In this document: positions 4,717 to 36,131 of the stretch, piece after piece
How positions within the stretch are numbered: the first letter of the stretch is position 1
Layout: the number at the start of each line of letters is the position of its first letter
Assembly (NCBI GenBank): GCA_005879795.1
Contig: VBKJ01000164.1
Location: 1 to 45,900, forward strand
Length of the DNA stretch: 45,900 nt
Direction of reading: 5' to 3'
From: Deltaproteobacteria bacterium
GTDB taxonomy: Bacteria; Desulfobacterota; Binatia; DP-6
Program-made: the position numbers and the translations under genes
The notes under the pieces: model-generated
Database searches by the model: none
What the model was told of the DNA's origin: nothing
What the model saw: only the letters and a program-made list of their open reading frames with translations

Positions 4717-4746
4717 TTGTGGCGCTCCCCGAGCAGGAGCTAGCAT
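4717..4746 (+). promoter_or_regulatory. Weak candidate promoter for the small ORF and SDR
   Basis: TTGTGG (4717-4722) and TAGCAT (4741-4746) are separated by 18 nt. A start site near 4753 would leave a 26-nt leader containing GAGGAGG (4763-4769) before ATG 4779. Both hexamers are partial matches. Confidence 0.3.
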
Positions 4747-7353: not shown

Positions 7354-7395
7354 CTCGGGCTTGTCGCAGCCGCCCGGCTTCTCTAGCGTGGCGGC

Positions 7396-7734
7396 ATGCC
7401 GGGCCCGCGCTCGCCGGACGCCACCCACATCGAGAAGCTCACCGAGGTCGGTCGCTACGCGCTGGGTGTCGTGTGGGCAGACCGGCACGACAGCATCCTG
7501 CCCTTCCGGAGCCTGCGCCGCGCCTGCCCGTGCGAGACCTGCACGGCGGCGCCGCAGGCGGATCTGCCGCCCGAGGCGGAGCGTCTCGCGCGCGTCGAGG
7601 TGCTCGGCGACCGAAGCCTCTTCCTCGGCTGGGCCGACGGGCACGAGAGCGTGCTCCTGCTCGAGGAGGTGCGTGCGCTCTGCCGTTGCGCGCGCTGCGC
7701 CGGCGAGCCCGAGTACCCGATCTCGGGTCGCTAG
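7396..7734 (+). CDS. DUF971 / GBBH-like N-terminal domain protein with an internal duplication
   Basis: A 112-residue protein with two related halves: VVWADRHDSILPFRSLRRACPCETC and LGWADGHESVLLLEEVRALCRCARC (each given here only as a motif; residues about 25-48 and 77-100). The W-x-D-x-H-x-S pattern followed by LR-x-x-C-x-C-x-x-C marks DUF971, the small domain also found at the N-terminus of gamma-butyrobetaine hydroxylase. Zn binding by the Cys/His set is likely. Stand-alone DUF971 proteins are often linked to Fe-S or Mrp/ApbC contexts, but no such gene is adjacent. The TAG stop at 7732-7734 is the first three bases of a 36-nt palindrome. Confidence 0.85.
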   Translation: MPGPRSPDATHIEKLTEVGRYALGVVWADRHDSILPFRSLRRACPCETCTAAPQADLPPEAERLARVEVLGDRSLFLGWADGHESVLLLEEVRALCRCARCAGEPEYPISGR

Positions 7735-7767
7735 GAGGCCGTCCGGGTAATCCCGGACGGACTCCTA
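7732..7767. repeat. 36-nt palindrome, short member of the TAGGAGGCCGTCCGGG family
   Basis: TAGGAGGCCGTCCGGG (7732-7747), loop TAAT, then CCCGGACGGACTCCTA (7752-7767); one mismatch in a 16-bp stem. It lies between convergent genes and overlaps the DUF971 stop codon; the DUF4340 stop (7771-7769) begins 1 nt beyond it. A 117-nt relative with the same arms is at 18580-18696. It has no T-tract, so intrinsic termination is possible but not standard. Confidence 0.92.
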
Positions 7768-7768
7768 G

Positions 7769-8281
7769 CTAGCGCGGCCCGTCGCGGTTGAAGAAGATGC
7801 GCTCCAGGTCGGTCAGGAACCCCGTGCCGACCTCGAGGACGCGGGGATCGCCCAAGCGGCGCGCGTAGAGGGCGCTGGCCCCCGCGTTCATGTCGCCGAT
7901 CACCAGCCGGCGCGCGCCGCGCGCGGTCGCCACCTCGACCGTGCCGCGCGGCCGCTCGAGGCCGAACGACGCCGCGTCGCGGCTGCGAAACGAGTCCACG
8001 GCGCGCAGCCCGACCACCGCCGTCAGGAGATCGTCGAGTGCCTCGGCTGTCCCCGCCGACGCGCGCCGGCCGTCGATCTCCCAGCCCTCGGCCCTCCGCC
8101 GGGCGCTGAAGCGCCGCCCCTCGAGCACCACGTCGATGCCGCGCACCGCGTGCCTCCCGACGCCGAAGACACGGTGCCCGCGCACCGCGAGCTGACCCCG
8201 CGGGCGCACCGGCGCGCGCACCAGCAGAACGAGCACGGTGCCCAGGGCGACGAGGGCCGCGAGGACCAGCGTGCGGCGCAG
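7769..8281 (-). CDS. DUF4340 domain membrane-anchored protein, last gene of the Gld-type ABC operon
   Basis: The conventional start is GTG 8236 (155 residues), but in-frame coding continues upstream to CTG 8281. That extension supplies LRRTLVLAALVALGTVLVLLV, the N-terminal membrane helix that DUF4340 proteins normally carry. No ATG, GTG or TTG exists in that stretch, so a CTG start giving 170 residues is my choice. The rest shows an alternating strand pattern, with the DUF4340-like segments GIDVVLEGRRFSARRRAEGW, a two-domain beta architecture and LVIGDMNAGASALYARRLG. DUF4340 genes commonly follow GldG-like ABC genes, as here (4-nt gap). The protein probably sits on the periplasmic side of the exporter. 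It is shorter than typical multi-repeat DUF4340 proteins. Confidence 0.75.
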   Translation of the reverse strand: MRRTLVLAALVALGTVLVLLVRAPVRPRGQLAVRGHRVFGVGRHAVRGIDVVLEGRRFSARRRAEGWEIDGRRASAGTAEALDDLLTAVVGLRAVDSFRSRDAASFGLERPRGTVEVATARGARRLVIGDMNAGASALYARRLGDPRVLEVGTGFLTDLERIFFNRDGPR

Positions 8282-17654: not shown

Positions 17655-17736
17655 GCGACCGTTCGGCGCCGCCGACACGCCGTTCGGCCGCCGGTGATTG
17701 ACTGGCGGCAATTGCTCCGCAAGGTTTGGCGGGGCA

Positions 17737-18582
17737 ATGCGCATCCTGGTCGCCGTCGTATTGGTCCTGGCCCTCGGATCGGCCGCCGGGGCCGAGTGTC
17801 CTCCCGACTGCATCGCGGGCGGAGGGCCCGCGGCAACCGACTGCTTCGTCGCCTGGAGCGGCATGCAGGCCATGAGCGAAGCGTGCACCGACGGTGAGGC
17901 CTGCGACATCGACGGGAAGGTCGACGGCGTCTGCACGCTCGGGATCCAGGGTTGCATCAACGTCCCGGGCCTGGGTCCGTGCATGCCGGCGGGCCTGAGC
18001 GGACCGCCGACCGTCACGCCGAGCAAGGACCCCACGGGGCAGGCGCTCGCCGCCGCGCTCGACGCGCTCGACTCGAGCACCCACGGCTGCACCCCGCCGG
18101 GGCTCGGCCTGCCGCTGCGGCTCTCGCTCGCGGGCATCAGGCCCGGCAAGTCGCGCCTCACCGTCACGGCGTCCTCGGGCGGCAAGCGCGACCGCGACCG
18201 CCTGCGCCTCACCTGCACGCCCGGCGCGGCGCAGCCGAGCTTCGCGCGCGACGTGCAGCCGATCTTCACGTCGCGCTGCGCGATCCCGAGCTGCCATACC
18301 GGCCCAGCGGTGAGCGCGAGCGGCATGCAGAGCCTCGACGCGGCCGTGGCGTGGGCGAGCAGCGTCAACGTCCGCGCCACCACCGGCAAGCTGCTGCGCG
18401 TGAAGCCGGGTAGCATCAGGGGCAGCCAGGTCGCGCACCGCGTCCTCGGCCAGGGACTGCCCCGCGGCGGCACCCTGATGCCGCAGGGCTGCCCCGGCTT
18501 CCCCCCGGCGGGTGGTTGCCTCACCGAGCCCGAGATCTTCACCATCCTCGCCTGGATCGCCGAGGGCGCGCCGAACAACTAG
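17737..18582 (+). CDS. Secreted Cys-rich protein with a C-x4-CH cytochrome-like domain
   Basis: A 281-residue protein with signal peptide RILVAVVLVLALGSAAGA. A Cys-rich N-terminal module follows (ECPPDCIAGGG, TDCFVAW, EACTDGEACDIDGKVDGVC). After a short beta-like segment (LPLRLSLAGIRPGKSRLTV) comes a C-terminal domain beginning FARDVQPIFTSRCAIPSCHTG, with C-x4-C-H in place of CxxCH; the terminal LTEPEIFTILAWIAEGAP matches cytochrome-like ends. The C-x4-CH variant is known from haem-binding PSD/PPC-type domains, but whether haem is attached is unproven. ATG 17737 is preferred over 17698 because it begins the signal peptide. Its TAG stop is the first three bases of the 117-nt palindrome, beyond which a dihaem cytochrome gene converges. 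Confidence 0.8.
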   Translation: MRILVAVVLVLALGSAAGAECPPDCIAGGGPAATDCFVAWSGMQAMSEACTDGEACDIDGKVDGVCTLGIQGCINVPGLGPCMPAGLSGPPTVTPSKDPTGQALAAALDALDSSTHGCTPPGLGLPLRLSLAGIRPGKSRLTVTASSGGKRDRDRLRLTCTPGAAQPSFARDVQPIFTSRCAIPSCHTGPAVSASGMQSLDAAVAWASSVNVRATTGKLLRVKPGSIRGSQVAHRVLGQGLPRGGTLMPQGCPGFPPAGGCLTEPEIFTILAWIAEGAPNN

Positions 18583-18696
18583 GAGGCCGTCCGGGTAGTC
18601 ATGGCGGCTGCGGCGAACGATCCGGGGGCTGCGAGCGGCGTGCTCGCTCCCCGGCTCGTTCGCCTCGCTCACCATGATTACCCGGACGGACTCCTA
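18580..18696. repeat. 117-nt palindrome, long member of the TAGGAGGCCGTCCGGG family
   Basis: Outer arms TAGGAGGCCGTCCGGGTA (18580-18597) and TACCCGGACGGACTCCTA (18679-18696) pair with one mismatch. Inner arms GGCGAACGATCCGGGG (18612-18627) and CCCCGGCTCGTTCGCC (18649-18664) also pair with one mismatch. At the tip GCGAGC (18631-18636) and GCTCGC (18642-18647) close a 5-nt loop. Both convergent genes use the outermost bases as stop codons: TAG 18580-18582 for the secreted protein, and the reverse-strand TAG 18696-18694 for the cytochrome. The 36-nt copy at 7732 has the same outer arms without the inner part. Confidence 0.93.
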
Positions 18697-19512
18697 GCGA
18701 ATCAGCGGCCGCCAGGTGCCTGCCCGGATCCAGCGCACGTAGGCGGCGAGCGCATCCACGTCCATCTCGGGGATGAAGCGCTGGAAGGCGGGCATCCTGA
18801 TCGCCTGCCGCTTGAAGAACCGGCCGCCGATCGGGTGCTCGGAGACCCGCGCGAGCTCGCCCCTGGCGATCCAGCTGCGCAGCTCTTCCTCGCTGCGCAC
18901 CAGGTCGTCGAAGTCGGCGCCCCAGAAGCCGGGCACGTAGCCCTTGAACGAGCCCGGGTTCCGCACCCCCCCGGCGCCGAGCGGGCCGTGGCAGGCGAAG
19001 CAGCCGAGGTCGCTCGCCAGCTCGGCGCCCCGCTGCGCCAGCGCTTCGTCGGGCAGGATCTGCCCCGAGGCGGCGCGCAGGTAGGCGACCAGGTCGTCGA
19101 CCTGCGCGGCGGTCACGAAGCTCCGGTAGGCCGGCATGCGGAGCGCTGCCTTCTCCACCCGCGCGCGGTAGTCGGGATCCTCGCGCTTGCGGCGCGGCGC
19201 GCCGTCGAGCACGTACTCGCGGAGGTCGTCGGTCGTCTTCACGTACATCATCTGCGTGCGCTCGGTGAACGCGGGCACCGTCCCCTCCTCGCTGCCCGGG
19301 TTCTTCGTCCCGCCGCCGCCGCCCGGTCCGTGGCACGAGAAGCACCCCAGCTCGGCCGCCAGCCGCTGCCCGCGCCGCGCCGGCGTCTCCTCGAGCGCGA
19401 ACAGCCGGACACGCACGGCCGGATAGGAGAGCCAGCCCGTCTCGACCACCGCCAGGGCAACGAGCGCTCGCCCGAGCGCGCGGCGCAGCCGGGGCATCCG
19501 GTTCACTTCCAT
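18694..19512 (-). CDS. Membrane-anchored dihaem c-type cytochrome with tandem domains
   Basis: A 272-residue protein with a single N-terminal anchor or uncleaved signal (about residues 13-31, LGRALVALAVVETGWLSYP) and two homologous cytochrome domains. Haem motifs are CFSCHG (about 57) and CFACHG (about 171), each followed by a GG-x-K/R-NPGS segment; probable distal Met ligands are ALRMPAYRSF and AIRMPAFQRF. The domain duplication is plain: both halves share LGCF-CHG, NPGS and RMPA-RF. It would carry electrons in the periplasm. ATG 19512 is used; Met6 is an alternative. It is divergent from a LolA-like gene with a shared 46-nt gap, and the partner oxidoreductase is not in the window. Confidence 0.92.
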   Translation of the reverse strand: MEVNRMPRLRRALGRALVALAVVETGWLSYPAVRVRLFALEETPARRGQRLAAELGCFSCHGPGGGGGTKNPGSEEGTVPAFTERTQMMYVKTTDDLREYVLDGAPRRKREDPDYRARVEKAALRMPAYRSFVTAAQVDDLVAYLRAASGQILPDEALAQRGAELASDLGCFACHGPLGAGGVRNPGSFKGYVPGFWGADFDDLVRSEEELRSWIARGELARVSEHPIGGRFFKRQAIRMPAFQRFIPEMDVDALAAYVRWIRAGTWRPLIR

Positions 19513-28474: not shown

Positions 28475-28503
28475 TAGCTAGGGACCAAAACCCCGTTTGT
28501 CAA
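28475..28503 (-). promoter_or_regulatory. Predicted sigma70 promoter of the grpE-dnaK-dnaJ operon
   Basis: On the minus strand TTGACA (28503-28498) precedes TAGCTA (28480-28475) by 17 nt. The predicted start near 28469 gives a 22-nt leader to ATG 28447. The -35 is perfect; the -10 is moderate. No CIRCE (TTAGCACTC) or sigma32-type -10 is seen, so any heat control would have to act differently. Confidence 0.55.

Positions 28504-34449: not shown

Positions 34450-36131
<1,682 letters not shown>

Follow-up and report, generated by a model that had tools for sequence, protein, structure and literature searches.

CTAG-flanked palindromes on the stop codons of convergent genes in a Binatia contig: probable IS1182-type MITEs with a recurrent hairpin core

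Why should short palindromes of one kind sit exactly on the stop codons between convergent genes? Two such palindromes lie in the window, by which we mean the whole 45,900-nt stretch analysed here (contig C164 of G000, a 4.1-Mb draft genome in 280 contigs). We consider them, with a probability of about 0.9 and on the strength of sequence comparison, to be non-autonomous IS1182-type MITEs, with terminal inverted repeats that run from CTAG into GAGNCYGTCCGRGTAA and that would be moved in trans by a CTAG-duplicating IS1182-family DDE transposase. This reading offers a concrete reason for their position.

Two palindromes between convergent genes

The short member (7731-7768) reads CTAGGAGGCCGTCCGGGTAATCCCGGACGGACTCCTAG and spans 38 nt including both CTAG copies, one base more on each side than the 36 nt of the earlier note. 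Its left CTAG (7731-7734) contains the TAG (7732-7734) that ends the plus-strand GBBH-like_N gene (PF06155; 7396-7734). There follow a left arm on the plus strand (7735-7752), the IS1182-type terminal repeat GAGGCCGTCCGGGTAATC, and the remainder of the right arm on the minus strand (7753-7764), CCGGACGGACTC. The right CTAG (7765-7768) is assigned as a target copy from frame-restoration cases elsewhere. The minus-strand DUF4340 gene (PF14238; 7769-8236) has its stop at 7769-7771, in a directly adjacent CTAG (7769-7772). The longer member (18579-18697) spans 119 nt, again including both CTAG copies; its left CTAG (18579-18582) supplies the stop (18580-18582) of a plus-strand open reading frame (17698-18582), and its right CTAG (18694-18697) supplies the minus-strand TAG (18694-18696) of a cytochrome c gene (18694-19512). 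Both copies thus lie between convergent genes and overlap a plus-strand TAG, and they share their outer arms and the position of one mismatch, as had been noted before. Folded as single-stranded DNA and compared with shuffles, they scored z = -8.2 (38 nt) and z = -10.8 (119 nt).

A search of the 4.1-Mb genome with the arm pattern AGGAGNCCGTCCGGGTAA returned 37 matches at two or fewer mismatches, against 1 for the reversed control, so the family is not due to chance; an extended pattern gave 51 matches. Most arm matches pair in inverted orientation to form two-ended elements, and we counted at least 19 two-ended copies (five of them short forms: C164a, C164b, C139a, C43 and C144b), together with roughly a dozen that are decayed or have kept one arm. 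At full length the copies measure 181-220 nt, start and end with CTAG and carry CTAGGAGNCYGTCCGRGTAA at their ends; CTAG stands at both ends of most copies. The dispersed copies are short, lack a transposase gene and have unrelated flanks, and the family thus outlasts both objections raised in the earlier note, that only two copies might exist or that a segmental duplication might explain the identical arms. The arm mismatch is a G in one arm and a T in the opposite arm, and most copies carry it. With few exceptions, the T arm is linked to the interior half called alpha and the G arm to the half called beta. Because the arms track the interior halves in this way, the mismatch can be read as an inherited mark of polarity; the G (beta) arm is on the left in both window copies, and the right arm of the short member is T-type (alpha).

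Copies also occur in two genomes of the same taxonomic family (G004 and G005) and in two from a different family of the class (G024 and G037). A near-identical copy, cut off at a contig end, lies in a contig assigned to a Gemmatimonadetes MAG (L077, 7684-7866; QHVD01000042.1), which reflects either mis-binning or transfer between phyla; a second genome-contig match, in a Clostridia contig and without a second arm, was judged to be chance. A nested inverted-repeat module, AGCCATCTGGCAGCGCGGCTGCCGCCGCGCT or one base off, replaces part of one arm in three copies (L064, 1125-1344, G000 C7; L069, 1498-1717, G000 C53; and L077). Its presence on two different arm subtypes suggests exchange between subfamilies.

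The absence of an interior in the short copy, taken earlier as a sign of deletion, was borne out when the window copies were aligned with a 184-nt reference copy (C159). In the 119-nt copy 65 nt are missing; the 8-nt direct repeat CTCGCTCC marks the breakpoints, and the rest of the alignment has 2 mismatches. The 38-nt copy is short of 146 nt and shows 1-nt microhomology and 1 mismatch. Judging from these alignments, the short forms of the window are internal deletion derivatives of the MITE. The ancestral unit would have been an imperfect hairpin of about 180 nt; the breakpoints suggest that the 119-nt copy arose by deletion between the 8-nt direct repeats, and the 38-nt copy may reflect a further or an independent internal deletion, deletions at hairpins being a usual outcome of slippage. 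The deletion of C164b recurs in C139a, and G004 shows deletions that resemble these yet are distinct. Two tiny hairpins with family ends, CTAGGAGCCTGTCCGAGTAAGGCTCCTGG (L039, 1542-1570, C144) and CCAGGAGCCCG...CGGGCTCCTGG (L044, about 1510-1555, C211, just downstream of a tRNA-like gene), were also seen in G000 and are possibly end-stage deletion remnants.

IS1182-type ends and the CTAG target

In a scan of viral contigs with the arm, CTAGGAGCCTGTCCGAGTAATC turned up a short way before the start of a protein, MPMSKTFRPWDVDQVWLLPPS, that resembles IS1182 transposases. Three viral contigs (L133, L134 and L135) carry IS1182-type ends, and two of them run into the transposase start and stop there, as is typical of assembly breaks at insertion sequences. 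A 48-aa query, composed of the first residues of the viral protein and, as its second half, a generic IS1182 N-terminus, retrieved annotated IS1182-family transposases on plasmids, and the ends of these plasmid elements were computed from their DNA. ISMno8 (L137) and the elements of Methylobacterium sp. FF17 (L138) and Xanthobacter Py2 (L148) have CTAGGAGCCYGTCCGAGTAA at both ends, flanked by CTAG; those of Roseomonas, Bradyrhizobium, Streptomyces and Halomonas, as well as ISAzo1 and ISKpn6, show the variants CTAGGAG or CTAGCAG on both sides. Copies in C143, G037 and G024 carry CTAGGAGCCTGTCCGAGTAA, or a sequence one base off, in one arm. Since IS1182 elements on alphaproteobacterial plasmids end in the same sequence, the palindrome arms can be identified as IS1182-type ends.

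To assay CTAG as a target duplication, flanks were joined with one, none or two copies of it. A Roseomonas IS1182 element (L140) splits a short-chain dehydrogenase gene, and its flanks give a 273-aa frame with exactly one CTAG and with neither none nor two. The MITE copy C86 lies between ATGAGG and GCTGGATC..., in the leader of an HlyD-type adaptor gene; one 4-nt copy kept restores MRLGWIVVLALAVLPAC... (a lipoprotein-like leader), and none kept does not. The left target copy of C86 is now CCAG, one substitution from CTAG. Because two interrupted genes are restored only with a single CTAG, we take CTAG to be a 4-nt target duplication, seen as CTAG at both ends and as restored frames from joined flanks rather than from a real empty site; plasmid searches with the joined flanks found no empty sites of the plasmid IS1182 elements. 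These results also bear on an IS1272-style insertion, in which the palindromes would be target hairpins replaced by the element and not MITEs. IS1272, of the IS1182 family, is reported to insert in place of inverted-repeat targets and to leave no target duplication (PMC5678879), whereas here one CTAG is duplicated and the arms are the ends of insertion sequences rather than just any palindrome, and we consider such replacement extremely improbable. The match of the ends to IS1182, together with the CTAG duplication, is what identifies the palindromes as IS1182-type MITEs.

The same target accounts for the stop codons. CTAG is palindromic and contains TAG, so many targets are stop codons, including those of convergent genes that share one CTAG, and the overlap of the elements with TAG stops follows from their targeting of CTAG. 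Of the 19 two-ended copies in the genome, 8 lie where a recognisable gene takes its TAG stop from the CTAG; the genes encode GBBH-like_N, MoaC, DUF6282, ABC ATPase, aldo/keto reductase, PfkB kinase, SRPBCC and cytochrome proteins, and two cytochrome-type proteins abut one single copy. In the relative G004, CTAG supplies the stop of phosphoglucose isomerase (PGI). An IS1182-family DDE transposase would insert the MITE at CTAG in trans and duplicate the CTAG, and the duplicate would hand each neighbouring gene its stop back. Before the insertion at 18579-18697, a single CTAG would have been common to both convergent genes, and the duplication would leave each with its own stop. Since a CTAG-targeting transposon restores the stop codons of both neighbours, such insertions would be nearly neutral. 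Only 17 CTAGs occur in the window (72.5% GC), and several are stop codons of called genes (7383-7386, 4740-4743, 28478-28481 and 36128-36131), a ready set of further insertion targets.

The placement of the hairpins directly at the stop codons of convergent genes, and the compact stable stem of the 38-nt form, would also suit bidirectional intrinsic terminators that had spread for that function, an origin the earlier note had entertained. The run of Ts expected of a Rho-independent terminator is absent after either arm of both window copies, one copy (C86) lies in a gene leader, and CTAG targeting explains the convergent, TAG-overlapping placement so that no terminator function is needed; we therefore find terminators very unlikely as the cause. 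The earlier note had also proposed a REP/MITE family with deletion derivatives, and its MITE and deletion parts stand, with IS1182-type ends and a CTAG target. The REP part, mobilization as REP/REPIN elements by a RAYT (Y1 HUH) transposase, draws on the intergenic, multicopy hairpins with a conserved mismatch. However, no match to Y1_Tnp (PF01797) was found in the genome by a search that finds matches in 5 control genomes, the ends match those of DDE-type insertion sequences and are flanked by duplicated CTAG, and the units are about 180 nt long, which leaves this origin with practically no likelihood.

The genome, a 280-contig draft, likewise gave no match to the IS1182 transposase (NF033551) or to IS5/IS4-type transposases (PF13340 and PF01609). 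IS1182 matches were found in 24 of 58 relatives; where CTAG ends could be identified, they were the variants CTAGGAGTCTGCGCC and CTAGGAGCGTGACCC, not GTCCGAGTAA, and some of these elements have CTAGGAG-type ends of other subgroups. The driver transposase has either been lost, been missed by the draft assembly or never been resident. Searches of plasmids and phages for the full element or its core gave no convincing match.

A hairpin core shared across the phylum

Among 20 aligned copies we found 62 consensus pairs, 17 of them with two-sided changes. Two-sided changes filled 57 cells, against 13.9 ± 3.3 in shuffles (0/500 shuffles), and pairing was seen in 96.8% of cells, against at most 47% when slid. 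Internal loops are uniform, with GA/GA at three places in 14-19 of the 20 copies and GA/GCA at four places in 16-20 of them; one GA/GA has become GC/GC in three copies, giving two standard pairs.

The same architecture recurs with other ends. G051 has a 183-nt element with the same core and loop order but with ends CTAGCCCGGATNATTCA..., and G167, G340 and G362 have a 184-nt element ending in CTAGCCCGCATTATTCATGA. Laid on C159 without gaps, the latter shows 48% identity and keeps 61 of 70 pairs, 34 of them by two-sided change, with unpaired positions alike at 28/40 (70%) versus paired positions at 58/140 (41%; one-sided Fisher p = 0.001). Equal-length palindromes keep their pairs trivially, so the overlay is informative only in the position and identity of its loops and in its unchanged length. 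A covariance model (R1) of the 87-nt core, run on 395 genomes of the phylum, matched 24 of them, from 17 genera, the weakest matches near E = 5e-4 being uncertain. Several genomes have at least 10 copies, with no more than 11 scored in any one genome. Multicopy elements of 183-184 nt with the same architecture end in CTAGCCCG[CG]AT[TN]ATTCATGA (L184, L190 and L194, G051; the same end type in L203, L226, L227 and L229, G167, G362 and G340). Other end types on the core are GGGGCC[GT]GTCCCCGGAAGGG (L208 and L230, G209 and G405), [CT]CCG[AG]ATT..TCATGAAG (L212 and L213, G459 and G364) and GGCTGTTGAAAAACAGCC (L211 and L214, G495 and G242). An insertion sequence owning CTAGCCCGSATNATTCATGA ends was looked for and not identified.

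Terminal repeats alone would not require compensatory change along the entire hairpin, which to this extent speaks against our main reading. The two-sided changes would reflect either selection on the folded strand, be it RNA or DNA that is single-stranded in the course of transposition, or correction between the arms of the palindrome. The conservation of the non-complementary loops favours the former, and the near absence of G-T intermediates favours the latter. On another reading, selection would act on the fold of the interior, as a structured RNA or as single-stranded DNA, and mobility would be secondary. The copies would then serve as RNA genes scattered through the genome or as signals for mRNA processing, a view partly compatible with MITEs. 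It draws on the excess of two-sided changes, on the recurrent GA/GA and GA/GCA loops, more conserved than the stems in the 184-nt relative, and on a Geobacter family with the same central palindrome, predicted as short RNAs in the available text of PMC2700814. Against it, arm-to-arm correction would likewise account for two-sided changes with hardly any G-T intermediates, deletion derivatives are common, and no Rfam family was matched at the gathering score; we regard it as unlikely. Sub-threshold Rfam matches, mostly to miRNA-type hairpins, were judged to be chance matches of long hairpins.

We tentatively suggest, leaning slightly against it, that the structured hairpin of about 180 nt may itself be the selected unit. 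Its fold, with GA/GA and GA/GCA loops at regular places, would be kept throughout a phylum by compensatory change and its ends swapped between IS types (IS1182-type CTAGGAGNCYGTCCGRGTAA here, CTAGCCCGSATNATTCATGA and others elsewhere), making it either a modular hairpin parasite or a dispersed RNA, carried along by different transposases. If so, one scaffold with different transposon ends could be used to examine whether the fold of a MITE, and not only its ends, is under selection. In the open-access literature searched, we found no description of a hairpin scaffold that is common to a phylum and whose ends are interchangeable.

Comparison with known systems

IS1182-type MITEs and CTAG-targeting MITEs are already known, as MITEPye1 (PMC11578231) and MITEPsy1 (PMC3189936). 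MITEPye1 of Paracoccus yeei is described, in the available text of PMC11578231, as 159 bp long and gene-less, with 18-bp IS1182-like terminal repeats and 4-bp direct repeats. By that description it resembles the window family in being small, gene-less and intergenic, with IS1182-type repeats and a long stem-loop, and differs in its 1-3 copies of 96-100% identity in one species; the same portion of the source reports no covariation, link of CTAG to stop codons or deletion series. Autonomous IS1182-family elements (ISMno8 and its plasmid relatives) share the ends CTAGGAGCCYGTCCGAGTAA and CTAG on both sides; they are 1.45-1.5 kb long and encode a transposase, which the window elements lack. MITEPsy1 of Pseudomonas syringae, a 100-nt MITE that has been shown to transpose, resembles the family in its 4-nt duplication of CTAG or YTAA (PMC3189936). 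It differs in its IS5-type (ISPsy2) ends and its unrelated sequence.

Correia elements (NEMIS), ERIC and RUP differ from the window family in their ends and target; the target of RUP and Correia elements is TA. By description they are alike as short palindromic mobile repeats that form mRNA hairpins, and Correia elements can be cut by RNase III (PMC10969869, where hairpin-forming bacterial MITEs are reviewed). A published family may also belong here: in L211 and L214, phylum relatives found with the core model, the apical hairpin is GRCGTAGCGCTGCTACGCC, the central palindrome of a 24-member Geobacter family. In the available part of PMC2700814 that family is described as predicted short RNAs, intergenic, for example in 5' regions, with no link to IS ends. 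Our comparison is by this central palindrome, which is absent from both window copies, as these have lost the core. On this sequence match, the phylum-wide core probably includes the Geobacter family, and, were the hairpin indeed a unit with exchangeable ends, the published "predicted short RNAs" could be reinterpreted as mobile elements.
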